DNA of 60,865 nt, taken from positions 1 to 60,865 of IMG/VR virus record IMGVR_UViG_3300025093_001645. One strand, written 5' to 3'. The DNA is from a virus. A program made the position numbers and the translations under genes. The notes beneath the pieces were generated by a model, which had not been told where the DNA came from, ran no database searches, and saw only the letters and a list, made by a program, of their open reading frames with translations. Positions 4,463 to 22,318 of this stretch are shown piece after piece (position 1 is the stretch's first letter; every line of letters begins with the position of its first letter).

Positions 4463-4720
4463 ATGAAAAAATTAAAATTTTGTGTTTTTTGTAGTGCTTT
4501 GAGTATTTTTTTGTTGGCTAGTGCTGATGTTTCAGGTAAAACCCCGGCAAAAAGTAAGTTCTATGATTTCAATGATCAAATAATTGATGGAGAAATCAAA
4601 AAACCAACAACTTTATATACAAATGCTCGTCAAAAAGTCAAGTTTGATCGTTTATTGAAACTAAAAAAGAGCTTTTTGCCTCGTTTGTTTAAGACAGCAA
4701 AAGAAAAAGTGTTTAAATAA
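4463..4720 (+). CDS. small exported protein, possibly host-derived family
   Basis: An 85-residue protein with an N-terminal signal sequence (MKKLKFCVFCSALSIFLLAS) and a basic mature part. The mature pattern F-x-D-x-I-I-D-G-E-I-K-K-P, then L-Y, then K-x-K-F-D-R-L-L-K-L-K-K-S-F, resembles short periplasmic proteins I associate with Myxococcota and related genomes; I could not verify this. Behind GAGGG. It ends six bases from the convergent Nudix gene. If the match holds, it is a host-acquired gene. Confidence 0.6.
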   Translation: MKKLKFCVFCSALSIFLLASADVSGKTPAKSKFYDFNDQIIDGEIKKPTTLYTNARQKVKFDRLLKLKKSFLPRLFKTAKEKVFK

Positions 4721-4725
4721 CTATC

Positions 4726-5139
4726 TTATGATCTATGCATTTGAGCATAAGCTTCTTTAATAGCGTTCATAAAATGCTGTGATATTTTAAAACCCTTTCT
4801 ATTAATCTCATCAATGGTTAGAAAAAAATAGTCAGAGTGCTCATCACTTAAGACGACTTCTCCTTTCGGAATTTCTCCAAAATAATAAGAAGTATTTCCA
4901 AATTCGTAAAGTTTTTTATAGTTTGTAATAATTAATCCTGTTTCTTCTTTCACTTCACGTTGTAATCCAACGACAGGATCCTCTCTGTAATGGATATGGC
5001 CACCAGGAAGATCTAATGTTCCTTGAAATTGAGGATGTTCACTAAGCAAAACTAAGATTTTTTCTCCGTTAAATAGAATGATTTTTGCAACCTTGTTGCT
5101 ATCCTTCTGTTCGTTGACGAAATTGTGCCATTTTTTCAT
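4726..5139 (-). CDS. Nudix hydrolase with tag-like N-terminus
   Basis: The Nudix box G-x5-E-x7-R-E-V-x-E-E-T-G-L is complete (GGHIHYREDPVVGLQREVKE followed by ETGL). Nudix enzymes cleave nucleoside diphosphates linked to X, such as ADP-ribose, NAD(H), capped RNA or mutagenic NTPs; the substrate cannot be read from sequence. ATG 5139 is preferred to an upstream TTG, giving 137 residues. The resulting N-terminus MKKWHNFVNEQ aligns with the F-x-N-W-R-K-Y-L-N-E tags of its operon partners, so this enzyme may also be head-packaged. It is the last gene of the minus-strand operon. Confidence 0.9.
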   Translation of the reverse strand: MKKWHNFVNEQKDSNKVAKIILFNGEKILVLLSEHPQFQGTLDLPGGHIHYREDPVVGLQREVKEETGLIITNYKKLYEFGNTSYYFGEIPKGEVVLSDEHSDYFFLTIDEINRKGFKISQHFMNAIKEAYAQMHRS

Positions 5140-5147
5140 AAAATAAT

Positions 5148-5366
5148 TCAACTTTTATTAAGATCTTTTAAATCATTGACTACTGTATCACAAGACGAGC
5201 ATGCTAATACCTGAACTGGTACAACTGCTTCTTGTCCAGTTGGAGAAAGAAGCGCGCTAACCTTTTTTATTCTAAGTAGCGGCTTAAAAAATAGATTTTC
5301 ACACGTTGGACACTGCATATCCTCTGCGTCATTAAGATTAAGATTGATTTGAGCTTGATTATTCAT
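5148..5366 (-). CDS. 72-residue zinc-ribbon protein
   Basis: Two CxxC knuckles, CPTC (19-22) and CSSC (56-59), enclose a conserved-looking core KPLLRIKKVSALLSPTGQE. This is a small zinc ribbon of the type found repeatedly in T4-like marine phages, without known function. Its start overlaps the end of the HAD gene by eight bases and it precedes the Nudix gene. Confidence 0.8.
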   Translation of the reverse strand: MNNQAQINLNLNDAEDMQCPTCENLFFKPLLRIKKVSALLSPTGQEAVVPVQVLACSSCDTVVNDLKDLNKS

Positions 5367-5946
5367 TGTTACCTCGTTTTAAATTTTCAAGTTTTTGTAT
5401 TGTATCATATATTGATGTATGAAGTATAGCAATTCCGCCATTTTCTTCCCATTTTTCAGTATATGTAGAGAAATCATCAATTAAAACACAAGGTTTTCCA
5501 TTATTTTGAGCCCAAATCTCTTTTTTTCCGTCCAAAGGAAGAAAAATATGCTCACTTTTTGGTTTTGGAAGCAAATATTGATTAATCCAGTCGATTTTGC
5601 CTTCCGCTGAGGCCTCATCCCAGGGGTGAGAAAGGACTTTTACCTCTCCAAGGCTGGCCAGGTATCTCCAGAACGCAAAAACGCCTGGAAGGGCCCTTAA
5701 ATTAGCCCAAAATGAGCGATTATCACCTAATAATTGTCTAATCCACTCCAAAGCGGCTTGAATTTCAGGATTTTCGTGGTCTTTTGACCATCTCCAGCGC
5801 ATTTCAATGATTTTTTCAAGGTTTTTGCGTAAATTTGGGTCTTTTGCCTCCAAAAAGACGCCATTTTCAAACAAATCAACCAAAACACCGTCCATATCGC
5901 AGTAAATTTCGTATGGAAACGCTTGTTTTTGCTCATTTTTAGCCAT
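5359..5946 (-). CDS. HAD-superfamily 5'-nucleotidase-like phosphatase
   Basis: Motif I DMDGVLVD (residues 17-24) gives the nucleophile Asp17 and acid/base Asp19. A Ser in LSHPW serves as motif II, and LIDD near residue 156 is motif IV. Length (195) and layout match the 5'(3')-deoxyribonucleotidase branch of the HAD superfamily, which removes phosphate from (d)NMPs. It begins one base after the ART-like gene ends. A role in nucleotide pools is plausible; the substrate is unproven. Confidence 0.85.
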   Translation of the reverse strand: MAKNEQKQAFPYEIYCDMDGVLVDLFENGVFLEAKDPNLRKNLEKIIEMRWRWSKDHENPEIQAALEWIRQLLGDNRSFWANLRALPGVFAFWRYLASLGEVKVLSHPWDEASAEGKIDWINQYLLPKPKSEHIFLPLDGKKEIWAQNNGKPCVLIDDFSTYTEKWEENGGIAILHTSIYDTIQKLENLKRGNNE

Positions 5947-5947
5947 T

Positions 5948-6520
5948 TTATACCAGTTTTTTCTCTTGTTTTTCCATAAAAATGTGGAAATCTTCAGTGT
6001 ATATTATAACAGCATTATTGGATTCGTCAAGCAAAAAATGTTCATCTTTGAATTCTGAGAGTGGAATTTGTATAACTGCGGGCTCTCCACCGTGTTTTTC
6101 AACGATTTTCATCGCATTTTCTTCGGCAAAACCGTAATTTCCCCATTTGCTTGGAGATTTTATACCATTTTTGGCTATTTCCTCTTGAAAAACAGTTGAG
6201 GTTCCATAATAAAGAGATTCTTCAACTAGATTTAATTGAATTGGCTCTTCTACACGTTTCAAGAATGTTTCTAATTCCTCACCTGGCTTTGATTCACGAC
6301 TTGGCCAAAGATCTGAATTCTCTGTACCATCTGGATATGTTGCTGTATATCTGCGTCCATCAGGAGTATCAGTATAATCAATTATAGGCTGTCCTCTACC
6401 CCAACGATGTTGTGAGCTTTGAGCAGAATTAAAACTAGCATCAGAAATTGCTTGTTCAATTTCTTTCTTTGATAGATTTTCCTTTAAATACTGTCGCCAA
6501 TTTTCAAATATAAGTTTCAT
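5948..6520 (-). CDS. tagged protein, possible ADP-ribosyltransferase fold
   Basis: The N-terminus MKLIFENWRQYLKEN is the F-x-N-W-R tag with an L-K-E junction. After a low-complexity linker, residues ~100-175 contain LYYGTS, then a G-I-x-x-P turn, then GNYGFAEENA and a hydrophobic beta strand. This order resembles H/Y-G-T-S ... Y-x-F-A-E arrangements in ADP-ribosyltransferase-like domains. If right, it is a functional analogue of T4 Alt, an internal head ART injected with DNA. The catalytic Glu cannot be assigned confidently. ATGA overlap with the upstream gene fixes the start. Confidence 0.6.
   Translation of the reverse strand: MKLIFENWRQYLKENLSKKEIEQAISDASFNSAQSSQHRWGRGQPIIDYTDTPDGRRYTATYPDGTENSDLWPSRESKPGEELETFLKRVEEPIQLNLVEESLYYGTSTVFQEEIAKNGIKSPSKWGNYGFAEENAMKIVEKHGGEPAVIQIPLSEFKDEHFLLDESNNAVIIYTEDFHIFMEKQEKKLV
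6483..6520 (-). repeat. tag-encoding direct repeat, copy 1
   Basis: The first 38 bases of the ART-like gene. The core CCAATTTTCAAATATAAG is shared with copies at 6929-6966 and (with two changes) 7467-7502; a shorter fragment is at 8918-8935. Nucleotide identity, not only peptide similarity, is conserved. Confidence 0.8.
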
Positions 6521-6966
6521 TCTAATCCCATCCTTGCTTTATAGGCTTCAACATATTTTTTAAATTTTTCGAAGATGGCGCCGCCTATACTTTCATAATC
6601 TTTATAGATTTCTTCAGGCTTATTTTTGCCACTGGCATAATCATAAGCATATGCCATTATTTCAGATGGTACACTATAGTATTTTTCTTTTTTTTCCCAC
6701 GGAATATCTTCCCATTCAATATCATCAGGAAGAGAGTGTTCAATCGAGTTATCAAAAAGCTCTGGCATTTCTTTAGCTTGAAGCGCGTGAATAGCTTCGT
6801 GTGGTAGTGCATCATCAGGAAGTGCCTCTATCCATTCTTCAGGTGGTGCTAGTTCAGAAGCTATTAGATCTCTTGCTTTCTGTAAATCTGTCGGAGGCAT
6901 TATAATCTTTAAAGAATCAGCTTCTTCATTTAAATACTTCCGCCAATTTTCAAATATAAGTTTCAT
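6517..6966 (-). CDS. tagged HExxH zinc metallopeptidase
   Basis: The F-x-N-W-R tag MKLIFENWRKYLNEE (L-N-E junction) opens a 149-residue protein. H56-E-A-I-H60 is the zinc-binding motif, and E102 in SEIMAYAYDY is a fitting third ligand, as in gluzincin-type peptidases with E-x-x-A-Y. Both neighbours overlap as ATGA. No signal peptide apart from the tag is present. Target unknown. The tag suggests packaging in the head and delivery into the host at infection. Confidence 0.75.
   Translation of the reverse strand: MKLIFENWRKYLNEEADSLKIIMPPTDLQKARDLIASELAPPEEWIEALPDDALPHEAIHALQAKEMPELFDNSIEHSLPDDIEWEDIPWEKKEKYYSVPSEIMAYAYDYASGKNKPEEIYKDYESIGGAIFEKFKKYVEAYKARMGLE
6929..6966 (-). repeat. tag-encoding direct repeat, copy 2
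   Basis: 5' end of the HExxH gene. It matches copy 1 almost base for base over 38 positions and stops being similar once the body of the protein begins. Confidence 0.8.
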
Positions 6967-7502
6967 CTTGTAGCCCTCTTGCGATTTCCCTCTTTCTCAA
7001 CATTTATTTTTGGATCAGCTTCTAGCCACTTCCAAATCTTTTGGCCCGCGGGTGATTGTTGGGTGTCGCTGTATACAACGCCATATTTATCTATGAGCCA
7101 CTTATAAAAGTCTGTTGTCCTGAAATTACCACCTGCCTTGCGTACATTTCCTGTTATAATGCCATCTTTATGAGGTTGGGTGGCGATAAAGAAAATTGGG
7201 GTTTCACCATCAAGAAGAAAATAAAAGGTATCTCTTCCGGCTGGATCATTGAATAATACCACTTGGTGTCCGAATTTGGGGTGGGCGCCCGCATCTTTTC
7301 TGTTGATTTTTTCAAAACGTGGCCAGCCCGTTGTAGGGTCTTTTTCGTGCTCTTTTTCATTTGGCGCCACGTATTCTTCTCCACCATCCCAAAAATAATT
7401 AATAGTATTTTGTCGCCCTTCTTGCGTTTTAGTTCCAGGAATAGCAGCAATTGCTTCAACTTCTTCTAAGTACTTCCGCCAATTTTCAAATAGGAGTTTC
7501 AT
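6963..7502 (-). CDS. tagged protein, GNAT-like
   Basis: The tag MKLLFENWRKYLEEVE opens a 179-residue protein. The body has a beta-rich centre (TFYFLLDGETPIFFIA) followed by D-F-Y-K-W-L and a C-terminal motif Y-S-D-T-Q-Q-S-P-A-G-Q-K-I-W-K-W-L. The S-D-x-x-x-S-x-x-G-x-x-x-W-x-x-L pattern recalls the cofactor-binding end of GNAT N-acetyltransferases, but the match is partial. It is transcribed directly after the FtsZ-like gene and overlaps the metallopeptidase gene as ATGA. Confidence 0.6.
   Translation of the reverse strand: MKLLFENWRKYLEEVEAIAAIPGTKTQEGRQNTINYFWDGGEEYVAPNEKEHEKDPTTGWPRFEKINRKDAGAHPKFGHQVVLFNDPAGRDTFYFLLDGETPIFFIATQPHKDGIITGNVRKAGGNFRTTDFYKWLIDKYGVVYSDTQQSPAGQKIWKWLEADPKINVEKEGNRKRATR
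7467..7502 (-). repeat. tag-encoding direct repeat, copy 3
   Basis: 5' end of the GNAT-like gene. It shares TACTTCCGCCAATTTTCAAA with copy 2 and then differs at a few positions. Confidence 0.75.
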
Positions 7503-7513
7503 TATTTTAGTTC

Positions 7514-8560
7514 CTATTGTGTTAAGCCGCCTAGTAACATTATGGCTATTAATCCAGGAGCATTATCAACTACATAAACTCCAGAAAATAAAGTTTCTGT
7601 TCTGCCGCCGACATATGATGTTGCTGCATCTAGATGCTGACTAATATTTGGATTTTCCGCCATCTCTGGAGGCATAACCAACAATAGGGCTCCAATTTTA
7701 GATTTCTCTTTTGTACTTGGGCATGGTGATCTCTTAATACAATTTTGAAGTATCGTAGCACCAAGAGAAGGACTTTCTACATCTTTAATCATTGTAGTAC
7801 CAATAAGCATTCTGCCTTCTGCTTCTAAACATCTTTCCAAATCTTTTGAATCAAAAGATTGAATTGAAGATTTTTCAGAAGCTAGTTTAAATGTTTGTTT
7901 GATTAACTTAGCTATAGCTGCATTTGCTGTTGGTAATAAATTTGTTAATCCAACCTTTCCTCTTAATATTTTAGTTTGTCTTTCATTATCTAATATAATA
8001 TGTGGAAATTCTGCAATATCGTTAGCCAAAATAGTTGCATTCTTAGAAATAGTACCATTAAGAAGTTCCTGTGAACTTGGCCAAGTCATAATATAAAATA
8101 CTTTACCTTCTCCCTGGACTGATCTTAAATAACGATTGAATACATCATCTAGAGCAGTGCAGGAACTACCAGTTCCTCCGCCGCCGCCAGCTAAAACAAA
8201 AATCCAATCAACTTTGCCTAATTTTGTTCTAAGGGCATCTTCAACAACAGCGCTATTATGTTTAAATACGCTCTTTCCAAAATCAACATTTTTAGCTACA
8301 CCATCTGCATCTGGAATAACTACGAGGTGTTTAGGATCAACATCTTTTGGCTGATCTTTGTCGGTAGTATTAATTAAAAGTGTTTTATTAAAACCTAGAT
8401 CTAAAAAAGCTTTGGCTAATTTGCCACCTCCGCCACCGACGCCAATAAATGCACAATTTAAAGCACATTCGACTGTATTTTCTGGAAGTTGATCAGCATC
8501 TGCAACTTCCTCTACTTCTCCATAATGATCTACAAAATCAAAATCATCAAATTCACTCAT
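7514..8560 (-). CDS. FtsZ/tubulin-superfamily GTPase
   Basis: 348 residues. The nucleotide-binding loop IGVGGGGGK (39-47), the tubulin signature GGGGGTGSS (125-133) and the synergy (T7) loop D237-x-x-D240 are present. The segment after D240 aligns position by position with FtsZ up to the conserved MLIG/MMG. The catalytic Asp pair that hydrolyses GTP in the neighbouring subunit is therefore intact and filament formation is likely. The acidic ~35-residue N-terminus is extra, and there is no long C-terminal tail for FtsA/ZipA. Phage tubulins centre DNA or segregate it (PhuZ, TubZ). AAAGGAGC Shine-Dalgarno and a near-consensus promoter lie upstream. Confidence 0.9.
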   Translation of the reverse strand: MSEFDDFDFVDHYGEVEEVADADQLPENTVECALNCAFIGVGGGGGKLAKAFLDLGFNKTLLINTTDKDQPKDVDPKHLVVIPDADGVAKNVDFGKSVFKHNSAVVEDALRTKLGKVDWIFVLAGGGGGTGSSCTALDDVFNRYLRSVQGEGKVFYIMTWPSSQELLNGTISKNATILANDIAEFPHIILDNERQTKILRGKVGLTNLLPTANAAIAKLIKQTFKLASEKSSIQSFDSKDLERCLEAEGRMLIGTTMIKDVESPSLGATILQNCIKRSPCPSTKEKSKIGALLLVMPPEMAENPNISQHLDAATSYVGGRTETLFSGVYVVDNAPGLIAIMLLGGLTQ

Positions 8561-8584
8561 TTTCTAGCTCCTTTAAATATAATA

Positions 8585-8613
8585 ATTATAAGTACACATC
8601 AACTATGCGTCAA
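8585..8613 (-). promoter_or_regulatory. sigma70-like promoter of the FtsZ-like gene
   Basis: On the minus strand TTGACG (8613-8608) and TATAAT (8590-8585) are separated by 17 bases, 11 of 12 consensus positions. The predicted start is near 8578, just before the AAAGGAGC Shine-Dalgarno sequence. It would give early expression of the FtsZ-like gene and the tagged genes behind it, independent of upstream transcription. Confidence 0.7.
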
Positions 8614-8623
8614 CTAAATCTGG

Positions 8624-8905
8624 TCACTGTTCTTGCATAGGATTAGATTTTTCTTCCATGGCCTTATCATATGCTTGGCTATACGCTAAATGAGTTATGC
8701 TTTCATCTTTTGGATTGCCCTTTAAAGCATCTTCTCTGCCTTTTCTTTTCATTTCATTTGAAATTTTTAGTTGTTGGGCCTTCCGCGAGGCCGTTGCCAT
8801 ACCTTTTTCAGTATACCGATAGCCTGGTCCACGGTATCTACCCTCTAGGAGGCTGTGGATCTCTTCTTTAATAATTTGTGTTAATTGTTCTTTTGTAATT
8901 TTCAT
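8624..8905 (-). CDS. 93-residue protein with I-T-x-x-x-L tag
   Basis: Start at ATG 8905, fixed by the ATGA overlap with the 759-residue gene; an in-frame upstream codon would add six residues. The N-terminus MKITKEQLTQIIKEEIHSLL followed by EGR is the second type of tag, with an L-L-E-G junction. The mature part is basic (SRKAQQLKISNEMKRKGRED) and could bind DNA. By analogy with T4 internal proteins I infer head packaging. Family unknown. Confidence 0.75.
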   Translation of the reverse strand: MKITKEQLTQIIKEEIHSLLEGRYRGPGYRYTEKGMATASRKAQQLKISNEMKRKGREDALKGNPKDESITHLAYSQAYDKAMEEKSNPMQEQ

Positions 8906-11181
8906 TTTATGAATGCTCTCCAATTTTCAAATAAGTCTGATAACTCATCTGTTGTTTTTTCTCTAGAAATCGTATCTTTAACTGCTTTTCTCGCTGCCGG
9001 TATAATTTCTTTTTGTAACTGATTATTAACTAGTGCTTCAACATATTGTCTAATCTTTTCAAAAAATTCTTCTTTATCAATAATATTTAGGAATTTTTCA
9101 ATTTGAGCAATTTCTTCTGGTGTTTCGTTGCCTTTTAAAACAATATCAAGCCAATAAGTAAATTTATCTCTAATATCCCATTCGCTTGCGCCGCTTGTTT
9201 GTTTTGGTGGAATAGATGCTTGTCTTGCTGCGCCCATCGCACCAAAATCAATCTTAAACTCTGGTACACGTACACCTTTTTGCTCATTTAAAGGCAATTT
9301 TAATTGATCTGCCGCCGCTTTTAAAGCTCTTTCAAATACAACGTTTAATCTTTTAATTAAATCTTGTTTAATTTTATCTATTGATTTTGTGCTTCGCAGC
9401 TGGTTAATCATAAAGTCCCAAATAAAGGATCGGGGATCTTCAGAAGTTTTTGGTCTTGGTAATTCTTTAGAAAGATATCTGCTTTTGCTTGTTAATTCTT
9501 CTGGTAGTTGAAGTCTCACAACAATTCTAGAGGAAACAGCGACGTTGCCATCTTCAAAATCAGCATCAAAGTTATTATACTCTCTTTCGTTAAAACGTTT
9601 AACCAAAGCTTTCAATCTTTCATTAGCAATCATTCCAGAGTCTTTCATATCTTGAATTACTGCTCTGTATGCTGCACCATATGCTTCATCAGCTTCTCTA
9701 ACGTCTACTAAAAAGGCCTTAAATCTTGTTAAAGGATCATCATCATAATATTCATTTTGATTCATAGTGACGTTAATTTGTAAATCTTCGCCAGCATATG
9801 TTTCAATATTCCAGATACCCTCATCGTTTAAAGCTTTTGAAAGAAAATTCTCTAGATCGTCAGTATCAACATTATCTTCTACAACATCCTCGTGATTAAA
9901 ATCAAAACCGGCACTAGCACTTATATAATCATTCCCTTCACCGTCAAAATCGCGCTCAACATAAACATTATAATGTTGCAATCCTGCTTCTTCAATTTCT
10001 CTATCATAATCTTCATCAGAAACACCAGTTGGATTTTGTTTAAAGTGTTCGTGAGCTTCACCAATAATAGTATACCATTCTTCTGATACTAAATCATCTA
10101 AGCTTTCAATTAGTTCATCTAAATCTTCGCCTTCCAAGTCCGCAGCTCTTAAGTATTTTTCAAGCTCTTTTAGTTTTTCGTCAGAGGGCATCAAATCATC
10201 ATCAGCATATGCCATTTGATAATTTTCTAATTGATTTCCTAAATTTAATAAAATAGTTTCAAGCTCTTGTCTATTTTCATCACCGCGCTTACCTTTATTA
10301 TAATATTTTTTTAAAGCTTTAGGGTTTTCTTGAGAATTCCAAAAACCCTTCATTATGATGTTATCACGAATAGCTTTTCTTACGTCTTCTTCATCTTGTG
10401 TTTCATTTGGACTGTGCCAAATAAGGCTAGGTTCTACGTCATCAGAATAGCCTTTATCCGAATCGTATTGTAGAGCAATTTTTTTAAACTCATCATCTAT
10501 AGGCAAATGGCGCAACTCTAAAATATAAAATGCCATACCCTCTCGTTTATATTGATCAAAATAATTTTTACTTGTTGTGGCGGCAATACACCACTGGGCG
10601 CCCATACCTAAAATACAAGAACCGGCTTCGGAGTCAGGTCTTTTCAAAGTATAGTCCGGATCATCAATAAGAGTTGTAATGGTTTTCTTGGCTTCTGCTT
10701 CCATTCCTTTAAGTTTTTCTCTTTCCTCAAATTGTTTTTGTGCCTGATAAGTGTCATAACTCCAATCTGTGTATTCATCATACTTGTTAATGTTTTTATC
10801 AATAAGGTTTCTTTCTGCTAATTTATGATATGTTGGAAGCATTCTTGCTAGTTCTCTAGTAGTACGTCCAACTGACGCTTTTACAGAATCTACATAATCT
10901 TCAATAACCATATCTCCGCGAAGTTGATTTTTAACATAATCTATGGAGCGAAATACTTCTTTATTGATTTGTCCAGCCAGCCAGTTAGCATATTTTTGTT
11001 TACCAGAAGGATCTGCGTCAAGAAGCCTTTCCATCTGCGCTGACGCAAACTCTTTAAAAATCTCATTATCAATACCTTTAGTGGCACGAGATAAAGCAAC
11101 ATCTTTTCTTCCTTCAATAAGAAGAGCTTCTTCATCTTCGGTTAAAAAGTTGCGATAATCTTCAAATATTTTATTAAACAT
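8902..11181 (-). CDS. 759-residue protein with tags at both ends and a WCIA module
   Basis: The N-terminus MFNKIFEDYRNFLTEDEEAL resembles the F-x-N-W-R tag (L-T-E), then LLIEGRK gives a second L/I-x-E-G site. The C-terminus ends LFENWRAFIK, the tag again. Residues ~185-260 hold GSCILGMGAQWCIAATT, a Y-F-D-Q-Y and a FYILELRHL strand; this G-x-Q-W-C-x-A/F-Y-I module recurs in marine phage proteins but is functionally unknown to me. The remainder is acidic and helical with an acidic beta-rich centre. Likely a large head-packaged protein. Its start lies 33 bases after the lipoprotein gene. Confidence 0.75.
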   Translation of the reverse strand: MFNKIFEDYRNFLTEDEEALLIEGRKDVALSRATKGIDNEIFKEFASAQMERLLDADPSGKQKYANWLAGQINKEVFRSIDYVKNQLRGDMVIEDYVDSVKASVGRTTRELARMLPTYHKLAERNLIDKNINKYDEYTDWSYDTYQAQKQFEEREKLKGMEAEAKKTITTLIDDPDYTLKRPDSEAGSCILGMGAQWCIAATTSKNYFDQYKREGMAFYILELRHLPIDDEFKKIALQYDSDKGYSDDVEPSLIWHSPNETQDEEDVRKAIRDNIIMKGFWNSQENPKALKKYYNKGKRGDENRQELETILLNLGNQLENYQMAYADDDLMPSDEKLKELEKYLRAADLEGEDLDELIESLDDLVSEEWYTIIGEAHEHFKQNPTGVSDEDYDREIEEAGLQHYNVYVERDFDGEGNDYISASAGFDFNHEDVVEDNVDTDDLENFLSKALNDEGIWNIETYAGEDLQINVTMNQNEYYDDDPLTRFKAFLVDVREADEAYGAAYRAVIQDMKDSGMIANERLKALVKRFNEREYNNFDADFEDGNVAVSSRIVVRLQLPEELTSKSRYLSKELPRPKTSEDPRSFIWDFMINQLRSTKSIDKIKQDLIKRLNVVFERALKAAADQLKLPLNEQKGVRVPEFKIDFGAMGAARQASIPPKQTSGASEWDIRDKFTYWLDIVLKGNETPEEIAQIEKFLNIIDKEEFFEKIRQYVEALVNNQLQKEIIPAARKAVKDTISREKTTDELSDLFENWRAFIK
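8918..8935 (-). repeat. tag-encoding repeat fragment at a gene 3' end
   Basis: CTCCAATTTTCAAATAAG encodes the L-F-E-N-W-R near the C-terminus of the 759-residue protein, so the same sequence module is used at a C-terminus. Confidence 0.65.
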
Positions 11182-11214: not shown

Positions 11215-11826
11215 TTATAATTCAAAGGCGCGCAACATTTGTCTTGCCTCTATGATCATATTGGTGTGGCGCCTTGTCCAACCTCTATGTTTATGACCTT
11301 CATGATCTGAATCTGCACTTCCGTTCTTTGCTAAAAGCGCTAGATGTACTAGTTCGTGCATTAAAGCACTTTCAGAAATTTTGTGACCATATCCTTGCCA
11401 AACCCAAATCATATGTTTGCCTTCAACTAATCCTATTATATTTCTATTGGCTTCAAATTTTTTACCATTTAAATCATATCCTTTGATACCCACTCTTTTT
11501 TCAGTACCCCAGCGCACCATAACTTTTTCTAACATTCCTCTAACAGCCATATTATCATCTTCAAAGTATTCTAGCCACTGGTGGTAAAAAATGAAAAAAG
11601 ATAATGCTACTTGATGCACAGGGTAAGTTTGACAATTTGGTACAACTTGACTAGCTTGATTAAAATAAGGAATTATAATCATTTGAGGGAAAGGCTTGCT
11701 TGGATCACATAAAGCTTTTCTATGAATTCTTTTGTATTCGTTATTGAGAAAAATTGTAGAGTTTTGGCTAGTACAAGTAATAGAAAATAAAGTAAAAACT
11801 AAAAAAATTATTACTTTCTTTATCAT
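11215..11826 (-). CDS. HExxH metallopeptidase, putative lipoprotein
   Basis: Residues 1-17 form a signal sequence ending at Cys18 (F-S-I-T-C), an approximate lipobox. H157-E-L-V-H161 is a zinc motif in SALMHELVHLALLA, followed by a His-rich stretch with DHEGHKHRGWTRRH that may supply the third ligand. The segment around residues 60-150 has conserved-looking aromatic residues. Location would be the periplasm or outer membrane of the infected cell. It overlaps the MopE/VWA gene as ATGA, so the two are made together. Substrate unknown. Confidence 0.75.
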   Translation of the reverse strand: MIKKVIIFLVFTLFSITCTSQNSTIFLNNEYKRIHRKALCDPSKPFPQMIIIPYFNQASQVVPNCQTYPVHQVALSFFIFYHQWLEYFEDDNMAVRGMLEKVMVRWGTEKRVGIKGYDLNGKKFEANRNIIGLVEGKHMIWVWQGYGHKISESALMHELVHLALLAKNGSADSDHEGHKHRGWTRRHTNMIIEARQMLRAFEL

Positions 11827-13757
11827 TCACTGCTTCCACCTTTACAAATTTCATCAATAATTTCCATTAGATTAGCGTACATTTCGGTAGGATTATTGGT
11901 GAGATAAAACCACTTCCCATTTCCAGTCGCAGCGAGATCCTTCCAATGATTTGAGCCGCCTACTCTAGAGAATGTATATAATCTAAGCTGTGGGGTGCCA
12001 GAAATAGCCGTTTTAACGTCTTCTACAGTCAAGTTAGGCACAAGGTAGCTTTGAGGGTGTTCGTCCGAAAAAACGATGATTATTCGGTCTGCCCCGGGGC
12101 GCCAAGATATGTCAAAATTTTCTTTGGGTGGAGAAGATTCTACTACGCTTGGACCAATTCCAGGAACTTGACCAACCCAATCTAAATCCTCAAGCAAATA
12201 TTTAAGACTAGAAGAGATATTGTGCACAGCAATATAGATAGCATCCAAAAGCATCTCAAATGCTGTAGTGTTTCCGTTCCATCCAATTGTGCTTCCCATA
12301 TTACTAAGAGCAGTTAGAAAATCAGTAAATCCAGTTAGATCCTGGAATAATTCTAATCTTTCACTATTGGTGTCATAGGCGACTGGTCCTCTAATAAATG
12401 CCCAGTTGATAACTTCCTCATCACTGAAACTTTGTGCAAACTGATTTAAAGCAATCATAACAGCATCCATTTCATCGCCCATTGATCCAGACCAGTCAAC
12501 AATAAAAAGAACATCTGTTTCTTTCATTTCCTCGCCCCAGTCTGCTATGCCATCACAATCATCATCTAGACCATTGCAGATCTCTTCTTGGGGTACAACT
12601 TCGCCTTCACAATAATACGGAATAAAGTTTTCTTCATCGTCGTGACTGCCCCATGTGCCTTCAACACAGACCATTTCGCCAGGAACACATATTCCAACCA
12701 TTAAAGTACCTTCTGGTCCCGAATAACAAGGGCTGTATAAATCTTCATCAATCAACTCGTTACAATTATCGTCAAAATTATTGCATTCTTCTTCAGCCAA
12801 TGGCATTCCTATTAGAGGATCACAGATCTCATTTGGATCTGTTGGAGGTATCCAATAACACATTGCAAAACAATCAGACATTGTTAGTTGAGTACAGTCC
12901 GGATCTACACATTCGCAAGTTTTAAATCCTTGGCCGCATAGTAAAGGACTTTCCTGGCAAGGAAATAGTGTACCTACGTCTTGGATTGTACAAACACAAT
13001 CTAGATCTTCATCAATGGCGCCATCACAGTCGTTGTCTAAGCCGTCGCAGATCTCTTCATTTACAGGAGGTGCGTTACAGGATATCCAGTTTCCATCAAA
13101 ACACATTTCATACCCTACTCCGCAAGCAGTACTACAGGGCTGAATTAAATCCTCGTCGGTAGTTCCATCGCAATCATTATCAAAGCCATCACAGACTTCA
13201 GGAGGAATTATGCCACACTCGTTACATTCGTTGCGCTGACCTTCATCAATGATTCCATCACAATCATCATCTTCGTAATTACAAGACTCTTCATTGCAAT
13301 CAGTTACGCAGTCAGTGTATTCTATTTTTCCTTTATTACAAACTTTATCTTGGGTACCAGGATATCCATCTTCTGTTACACATTCTAAAGTTTTAATTAA
13401 GTATTGTGTAGGGTCACATTCCATAAACTCTATACATTCTGTCTCTGAATATACAGTTGGAGGGTCCTCACAGATATTAATACAAATTTCTTTTTGCCAA
13501 ACCGAATCTAGTGGAGGACAAAAATACATATTGCAGTCAATGCATTCAGGATCAACTTCCTCTTCTGGTGTCCAAGGCACTACGTCTGGATATTCATAAT
13601 CATTAACGTCAATAGGGCCAGAAAGGTCCATAATACCTGACGACATTCCGTCAACAGCATCAGAGCAGTATGATAAAAATACTGCCGAAATCAAAATGAG
13701 TAGAAGAGTTTTTATTCTTGTTTTAGAATCAACTTTTTTAAGTTTTTTTAAACTCAT
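11823..13757 (-). CDS. MopE-repeat and von Willebrand A lipoprotein
   Basis: 644 residues. A basic start and hydrophobic segment end at Cys31 (L-S-Y-C; Tyr before Cys is atypical for a lipobox). The cysteine-rich middle holds about five acidic repeats of the type C-D-G-x-D-N-D-C-D-G-x-x-D-E (e.g. EVCDGFDNDCDGTTDEDL), the MopE metal-binding repeat common in Myxococcota and relatives. From about residue 415 a VWA domain follows, with intact MIDAS sequence DWSGS for Mg-dependent adhesion. I infer a surface-displayed adhesion or shielding lipoprotein acquired from a host. A TATAAATA lies 80 bases upstream, so late expression is likely. Confidence 0.85.
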   Translation of the reverse strand: MSLKKLKKVDSKTRIKTLLLILISAVFLSYCSDAVDGMSSGIMDLSGPIDVNDYEYPDVVPWTPEEEVDPECIDCNMYFCPPLDSVWQKEICINICEDPPTVYSETECIEFMECDPTQYLIKTLECVTEDGYPGTQDKVCNKGKIEYTDCVTDCNEESCNYEDDDCDGIIDEGQRNECNECGIIPPEVCDGFDNDCDGTTDEDLIQPCSTACGVGYEMCFDGNWISCNAPPVNEEICDGLDNDCDGAIDEDLDCVCTIQDVGTLFPCQESPLLCGQGFKTCECVDPDCTQLTMSDCFAMCYWIPPTDPNEICDPLIGMPLAEEECNNFDDNCNELIDEDLYSPCYSGPEGTLMVGICVPGEMVCVEGTWGSHDDEENFIPYYCEGEVVPQEEICNGLDDDCDGIADWGEEMKETDVLFIVDWSGSMGDEMDAVMIALNQFAQSFSDEEVINWAFIRGPVAYDTNSERLELFQDLTGFTDFLTALSNMGSTIGWNGNTTAFEMLLDAIYIAVHNISSSLKYLLEDLDWVGQVPGIGPSVVESSPPKENFDISWRPGADRIIIVFSDEHPQSYLVPNLTVEDVKTAISGTPQLRLYTFSRVGGSNHWKDLAATGNGKWFYLTNNPTEMYANLMEIIDEICKGGSSE

Positions 13758-21529: not shown

Positions 21530-22318
21530 ATGAATAATATGAAGTTAATTATGGAGCGCTTTGATCGCTACGAAAAAGAAGTTTTGTTTGAGCAAAAGAT
21601 CAACGAGATCCAAGAAACAAATGAATTTAAGTTATTTGCTGAAGGGAAATTAGACAAAGAAGAGTTTAAATCTTTTCTTATCGAGGCATATGGCGAAGAA
21701 TTGGCCGAAGGTTTTTTGACGGACCTAGGCGGGAAGCTTAGAAAGCTTGGACTTAGCGCTGCAACAATTGCTACATTACTTGCTGGCGCGCCAGCAGATG
21801 TAAAGGCAGCCCCCTCAAGCCCCACAACACAAGTGGTAGCATCTGACGATCAAAGAATGCAAGACGTAGCTCAGTTTGTCTCAAACGCCCAAGACATCCG
21901 AGCGCTAGAATTATCACAATCAGGCGCCGGCGCAACAAAAGAAGATAAAAAAGCTCTAGAAGCTGCCGAAACAAAAATGAAAGATTTTCTTGTGGATCAA
22001 GGCGTCGGTGATAAAGGTCAGCAAAAATTAATGCAATTGTCAAAAAGTGGAGAAATAAGACTTGCAAAAGAATTATTTAAACAAATCTTAGAAAGAAAAG
22101 TAACCCCACCAGAAAGAAAAGGCGGAGAAGAGCAATCTAGAGCAAACTATAGAAACCAGATACTTGCTACTGCCGGCGGAGATAGTGGATTTGATGCTGA
22201 ATTAATTGACTTAGCTTTAGAGCAAAATCAAATTACTGATGATCAAGCAGAAAGCCTAAGACCTTTGGCAGGCAAAGCTAACCAAGGTGATGCAGTAGGA
22301 AATATTTTAAATCGTTAA
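21530..22318 (+). CDS. 262-residue tag-related protein with hydrophobic segment
   Basis: ATG behind AGGAGAAA. The N-terminus MNNMKLIMERFDRYEKEVLF loosely resembles the MKLIFENWR tag. Residues ~65-95 contain FLTDLGGKLRKLGLSAATIA followed by a Leu/Ala stretch, a possible membrane or amphipathic segment. The rest is helical and charged. It closes the tagged-protein operon. Family not recognised. Confidence 0.65.
   Translation: MNNMKLIMERFDRYEKEVLFEQKINEIQETNEFKLFAEGKLDKEEFKSFLIEAYGEELAEGFLTDLGGKLRKLGLSAATIATLLAGAPADVKAAPSSPTTQVVASDDQRMQDVAQFVSNAQDIRALELSQSGAGATKEDKKALEAAETKMKDFLVDQGVGDKGQQKLMQLSKSGEIRLAKELFKQILERKVTPPERKGGEEQSRANYRNQILATAGGDSGFDAELIDLALEQNQITDDQAESLRPLAGKANQGDAVGNILNR

Follow-up and report, generated by a model that had tools for sequence, protein, structure and literature searches.

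Why would three neighboring phage genes with unrelated bodies begin with almost the same DNA? The genes lie on IMG/VR virus record IMGVR_UViG_3300025093_001645, a stretch of 60,865 bases from a T4-like virus of bacteria that was analyzed at its full length (the window). An original prediction, made from the window alone, held that this common start, here called the tag, is conserved at the DNA level and could be the exchange point at which new cargo bodies are recombined onto a ready-made beginning. The explanation we favor, with a probability of about two in three, is that the repeat encodes a T4-like capsid-targeting sequence (CTS) of injected proteins and that its DNA doubles as homology for the exchange of the cargo.

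A Common Start on Unrelated Genes

The repeat family, D3, consists of three 42-nucleotide (nt) direct copies; measured against the first, the second is 93% and the third 83% identical, with 39/42, 37/42, and 35/42 matching bases in the three pairs. Each copy is the exact 5′ start of a minus-strand open reading frame: MKLIFENWRQYLKE at 6479–6520 opens frame 5948–6520, MKLIFENWRKYLNE at 6925–6966 opens 6517–6966, and MKLLFENWRKYLEE at 7461–7502 opens 6963–7502. These type-1 tags encode MK[LI][IL]FENWR[KQ]YLxE, and the bodies behind them (C, B, and A, in this order) are unrelated, with no direct repeat in the window connecting them beyond the tags. The near-identical starts on unrelated bodies that had been predicted are therefore confirmed. 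ATGA overlaps link the three consecutive genes, and the downstream tag thereby provides the stop codon of the preceding gene.

Does the shared DNA exceed what the shared peptide demands? Between pairs of window tags, 9/10, 8/10, and 6/9 codons were identical, compared with about 5 expected from codon usage (P = 0.012, 0.087, and 0.33). Arg is encoded by CGG, a codon with a frequency of 2% in this genome, in two of the three tags. The window by itself is a weak case for conservation at the DNA level, its synonymous identity being little above codon bias, and relatives were for this reason collected from IMG/VR with patterns left open at synonymous third positions.

The relatives contained at least 338 distinct type-1 tagged genes in at least 194 loci, with at least 143 unrelated body clusters. 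These counts exclude body cluster 3 (MKKFFENWFNRMF, 13 genes), which the pattern had caught as tagged cargo and which was rejected as a fragment of the tail-tube protein gp19. This cluster was also left out of the codon-by-codon profile, the homology-end test, and the tag-profile search, and is still within the codon-spelling percentages, the pooled codon identities (codons 2–11 and 12–15), and the untagged-start and dialect tests. The consensus of 126 representative proteins is MKLLFENWRKYLxE, with nothing common behind the tag, and the common DNA word is ATGAAACTCCTATTTGAAAATTGGCGAAAGTAT. Its spelling is strongly biased, with CTA at Leu4 in 62% (13% expected), CGA at Arg9 in 61% (13%), GAA at Glu6 in 95% (71%), and AAG at Lys10 in 69% (34%); where the tag has Leu5, the codon is CTT in 96%, one base away from TTT. 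The first ten codons of untagged genes show no such bias (CGA in 11% of Arg codons), and a general codon preference at gene starts was rejected on these grounds.

Where does the common DNA begin and end? Among genes with unrelated bodies, identity over codons 2–11 was 0.629 between loci and 0.712 within a locus, compared with an expectation of 0.45–0.47; codons 12–15, at 0.49–0.52, were close to expectation. Resolved by codon, this excess spans codons 2–9, is small at 10–12, and is gone from codon 13, save for Glu14, where comparisons between loci retain a slight one. Despite the lost codon excess, the amino acids Leu/Ile12 and Glu14 are themselves conserved. On the other side, the 30 nt upstream of the ATG are identical at chance level (0.31–0.32), both within and between loci. 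Taken together, these profiles indicate that the shared DNA forms an island that begins at the ATG and extends for about 30 nt, the protease-like end of the tag being kept mainly as protein. Synonymous conservation, which the window had failed to establish, is thus clear in the relatives, inside the tag and not directly outside it. Furthermore, the tags of a locus share a dialect, as their identity of 0.712 compares with 0.637 ± 0.015 when the partners are drawn from other loci.

In the largest array, about 14 kilobases (kb) of a single contig contained 13 tag matches (contigs of loci L013 and L016). In a near-complete genome of 204 kb (G001), the tag profile found five plain and two variant N-terminal tags and one internal match, separated from the background by a wide gap. 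Searches of 50,697 phage records for the tag in cultured phages, using a 30-residue composite and a 45-nt consensus, gave no convincing match, such short queries being insensitive, and bacterial genomes contained no exact match to the tag pattern. A literature search for the peptide string returned nothing relevant; it did not cover the polymorphism of T-even internal proteins reportedly described by Repoila et al. in 1994, with which there may be overlap at the DNA level.

Exchange of Bodies Behind the Tag

Are different bodies attached to the same repeat in related phages? The closest relative, L291 (IMGVR_UViG_3300030376_008775), matches the window with 87% nt identity over 8859–10857 and 82% over 4601–6223. 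Between these flanks, the matches are tag islands of 38–51 nt, plus one 34-nt match at 8601–8634. The window carries, in order, a second type of tag (type 2, see below) with its body, a tubulin-like gene, and the tag followed by bodies A, B, and C. The order in L291 is the type-2 tag with another body, a lipoprotein, the tag with yet another body, and the tag with a different N-terminal part joined to the end of C. In L292 (IMGVR_UViG_3300025133_009964), about seven tag-like genes, including AAA-domain and TMEM65-domain proteins, lie between matching flanks. Both relatives have thus kept the flanks, but the number of tagged genes differs from that in the window and most of the bodies are other ones; the same three bodies do not recur in the same order.

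The slot behind the tubulin-like gene behaves similarly. Its 16 complete copies hold 11 body clusters, and in 12 pairs the bodies are unrelated although the tubulin genes share at least 90% identity. Synonymous identity in this slot is 0.81–0.82 in the tag, compared with 0.67–0.74 in the tubulin gene upstream.

Homology between loci also tends to end at tagged starts. The first breakpoint counts were dominated by the tubulin slot, and the test was repeated with the tubulin loci left out, scoring ends on the upstream side between −30 and +75 around gene starts; this interval was set wide for both classes because the tag itself adds about 30 nt to a block. At ≥80% identity, homology ended at 20 of 25 tagged starts and 31 of 134 untagged starts (Fisher P = 1e-7), and at ≥90% identity at 10 of 12 and 8 of 32, respectively (P = 0.001). 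Swapped bodies, the synonymous island, and the homology ends all support the predicted role of the repeat as an exchange point for cargo bodies, and the mosaics suggest that the crossover itself may have fallen inside the tag, a sequence that is short and itself conserved.

A Second, Unrelated Tag

The type-2 tag of the window, MKITKEQLTQIIKEEI (8861–8908, minus strand), is the start of gene 8624–8908. The homology with L291 over 8859–10857 stops right behind it, and the bodies that follow are unrelated. Its family, with a consensus near MKITKSQLKQIIKEEL, comprises 204 genes in 91 loci and is likewise biased in spelling, with TCA at Ser6 in 62% versus 20%, CAA at Gln7 in 93% versus 70%, and GAA at Glu14 in 93% versus 72%. 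The similar behavior of two unrelated tag words would point to a process, namely exchange at common gene starts, more than to a single nucleotide signal. In the window, the type-2 peptide MKITKxQLxQIIKEEL is found on three unrelated small proteins, at 1484–1675 and 1951–2223 on the plus strand and at 8624–8908 on the minus strand.

A Candidate Capsid-Targeting Sequence

Why is the shared protein tag kept, a point on which the original prediction is silent? A capsid-targeting layout like that of T4 would explain it. The T4 protease gp21 cuts at (L/I)xE, and the N-terminal propeptides of the T4 internal proteins, 10–19 residues long, are capsid-targeting sequences; in internal protein III (IPIII), targeting is the role of residues 4 and 7, in the N-terminal part, and processing that of residues 8 and 10 (PMC9026906). 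Among the tagged genes, 245 of 336 (73%) have (L/I)xE at residues 12–14, compared with 1.1% per position elsewhere in the same proteins. All but one of 14 tag-bearing contigs encode both gp21 (Peptidase_S77) and gp23, the remaining contig being a fragment of 123 kb, and in 13/13 gp23 precursors the likely propeptide ends with LxE. Among the domains of the cargo are protein kinase, nuclease, HNH, HD, NUDIX, GNAT, ADP-ribosyltransferase, DnaJ, and ParB-like domains. Such enzyme-like and effector-like cargo is as would be expected of injected proteins, and the T4 internal proteins inhibit type IV restriction (PMC12373910). The idea that the tag mimics the gp23 propeptide (FENQ/LENQ) was dropped, as the tag profile scores that segment at background.

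It is therefore plausible to picture the system as follows. The first 14 residues, approximately MK[LKM][LI]FENWRK[YF][LI]xE, would direct unrelated cargo into the prohead core, where a prohead protease of the T4 gp21 type would cleave behind (L/I)xE; the cargo would remain in the head and be injected together with the DNA. The common gene starts of about 30 nt would offer short homology within a genome and between co-infecting phages, by which bodies could be gained, lost, and replaced. Exchange at the tags would keep their synonymous sites alike, with bodies and upstream DNA unrelated. A more far-reaching version, which we put forward only tentatively and hold to be less probable than its opposite, is that a large uncultured T4-like group possesses two unrelated packaging tags whose DNA is homogenized per genome and evolves in concert, independently of the genes that it heads, while serving an open-ended arsenal of injected proteins as its permanent site of recombination.

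Several points weigh against the explanation that we favor. The tag differs in sequence from the T4 leader MKTYQEFIAE, and T4 proteins score at background with the tag profile; because a FENW core replaces the T4 leader sequence, we class the tag as working like a CTS, not as a member of the T4 leader family. Neither gp21 nor gp23 is encoded on the window or on its closest relative, both of which are fragments, and packaging, cleavage, and injection of the tagged proteins are deduced from sequence comparison. As to the exchange, the tags are not the only junctions, since the last cargo gene of the window and L291 was exchanged internally. The last 92 residues of body C are 90% identical in L291 (L291:7217–7999), the preceding part differs in length and sequence, and a second exchange point thus appears to lie inside gene 5948–6520, near residue 99. 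Breakpoints near tagged genes need not be in the tag, because accessory genes turn over anyway; the sites in the homology-end test are partly reciprocal; and a stretch of about 30 nt gives homologous recombination little length to act on.

Alternative Explanations

Could the DNA of the tag be kept by selection on the nucleotides themselves? On this account, the tag would be capsid-targeting, its 5′-end DNA would be held by translation initiation, RNA structure, or a repressor site, and the bodies would be swapped by illegitimate recombination at gene borders. The conserved DNA does surround the start of translation, which is where signals of this kind are located, and the spelling is common to all contigs rather than confined to one genome. 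However, untagged genes of the same loci lack the bias, the upstream leader is not conserved, and the second tag, of unrelated sequence, behaves likewise. Moreover, tags of the same locus are more alike than those of different loci, which a fixed signal does not predict. We regard this explanation as unlikely, although it survives better than those that follow.

The tag might instead have nothing to do with the head and be a general signal for localization or interaction, for example for a phage tubulin-like cytoskeleton, given that a tubulin/FtsZ-like gene stands in the array and directly before the cargo slot in dozens of loci. This appears improbable, since the tubulin-like gene occurs in 5 of 14 tag-bearing contigs and is missing from several of about 190–204 kb, whereas gp21 and gp23 accompany the tag in all contigs but one; in addition, the (L/I)xE ending fits a protease.

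More improbable still is an origin of the tagged genes by ordinary duplication, in which the bodies would have diverged past recognition while the tag stayed under selection. Some tagged neighbors do have related bodies (L013:2513 and 4474), but the body clusters include unrelated enzyme folds, which contradicts duplication; synonymous identity stops by codon 13 with no gradual fading, and different bodies occupy the same slot between flanks that are ≥90% identical. Finally, codon bias and chance acting on a shared peptide in an AT-rich genome would suffice for two of the three tag pairs in the window and are refuted by the relatives, with their CGA and CTA excesses (61% and 62% versus 13%) and overall identity of 0.63–0.71 versus 0.45–0.47.

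Comparison with Known Systems

The system belongs to a known kind, that of the T4 internal-protein leaders with their polymorphic loci. Similar to the tagged proteins, T4 IPI–III and Alt carry a short N-terminal leader ending in (L/I)xE on otherwise non-homologous proteins (PMC9026906; PMC12373910), T4-type gp21 and gp23 are encoded in the same genomes, and polymorphic loci hold several leader genes. The first 32 nt of T4 ipII and ipIII are identical, after which the genes are wholly different; the pattern is the same as in the tags, and the situation is therefore also present in the model phage. On the other hand, the tags have a FENW core and 14 rather than 10 residues, reach 13 matches per contig, share their DNA spelling across hundreds of genes and contigs, and are found in genomes that carry a second type of tag as well. 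Their homology starts at the ATG, whereas ipII and ipIII share the upstream leader too.

RB69 also has several genes with T4-like leaders (MKTYKEF type) in its genome, but its four copies, unlike the tags, vary synonymously (ACA/ACG/ACC, CAG/CAA, GAG/GAA, and TTT/TTC). The promoter/stem-loop (PeSL) shuffling modules of T4 place a conserved non-coding motif upstream of exchanged genes. No such motif was found in the 40 nt upstream of the tags, which hold a weak ribosome-binding signal only (identity of 0.31 over 30 nt). The ejection proteins of SPN3US and phiKZ would resemble the tagged proteins as head proteins whose N-terminal propeptides are removed by a related, gp21-like protease (PMC10052503); their propeptides are mostly 111–254 residues long (two are of 20 and 24) and share no single 14-residue word. 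What is apparently new here is the tag itself, its scale, a DNA island that stops before the cleavage motif, and the dialect within loci.

The T4 internal proteins are the classic injected anti-defense proteins, and to our knowledge few such proteins have been described. With a peptide and DNA word as a marker, injected proteins of uncultured phages could be listed by string search, as with the at least 143 clusters collected here. The tag system illustrates how a phage could hold a loading signal fixed while its cargo changes, and whether the loading signal itself steers cargo exchange becomes a directly testable question.

Other Features of the Locus

The original prediction had also counted, as part of the repeat, an 18-base fragment at the 3′ end of the gene for a 759-residue protein (8902–11181, minus strand). 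The fragment is present: 8918–8935 reads CTCCAATTTTCAAATAAG and has an exact 14-nt core, CCAATTTTCAAATA, in common with the tags. Read in the frame of the tag, it gives LFENWR, yet at the C-terminus (DLFENWRAFIK*; LFENWRAFIK at 8905–8937). It is not conserved, because L291 has LAERWRRFIK at the matching place. FENW or FESW occurs near the C-terminus of a few other genes (in L030, L198, L026, and L102), mostly with other codons, and the window's copy thus appears to share a peptide word with the tag rather than to provide evidence for the DNA repeat. The genes concerned include L026:9125–10240, L030:2687–3814, L030:5743–7575, and L198:623–1615; two are also N-terminally tagged, and one has a phage lysozyme domain. 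A C-terminal tag is conceivable, since T4 Alt is cleaved at both ends (PMC9026906). At its N-terminus, the 759-residue protein has a divergent tag, MFNKIFEDYRNFLTE (11137–11181, minus strand), and its homologues (body cluster 4; L013, L020, and L032) begin with a true tag, MKLLFENWRKYI and similar.

The cargo bodies and the genes described next lie on the minus strand unless stated otherwise. Body A (6963–7460, about 165 residues), without an assigned function, has a tagged homologue on a 203-kb contig (L315, 36% over 179 residues). Body B (6517–6924, 135 residues) contains an HEAIH motif of the HExxH type and has no homologue at the corresponding locus of L291 and L292. Body C (5948–6478) is possibly similar to RNA 2′-phosphotransferases/ADP-ribosyltransferases, judging from weak matches to PF01885 (E = 0.015) and phrog_5470 (E = 0.0027); an AlphaFold model of the whole 190-residue cargo protein was unusable (predicted local distance difference test score, pLDDT, of 38).

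The untagged gene within the array (7514–8560) belongs to the FtsZ/tubulin family (PF00091, E = 1.7e-5; FtsZ profiles from the PDB, E = 1e-9). Its product has the GTPase motif GGGGGTGSS, with CetZ as the best fold match, and gave no tblastn match among the 50,697 phage records. The gene is present in 56 collected loci and in 5 of 14 long contigs, and often directly precedes the cargo slot.

The start of a NUDIX gene (4726–5151), MNYFMKKWHNFVNEQ, resembles a worn tag, because its homologue in L292 starts with MNILFERWRAYLLTE. Gene 21530–22318, on the plus strand and without a PHROG match, has the start MNNMKLIMERFDRYEKE, whose layout is tag-like, and possibly encodes a further tagged protein. 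The 644-residue product of gene 11823–13757 has metal-binding repeats of the MopE type and possibly a VWA domain, which is unusual in a phage.

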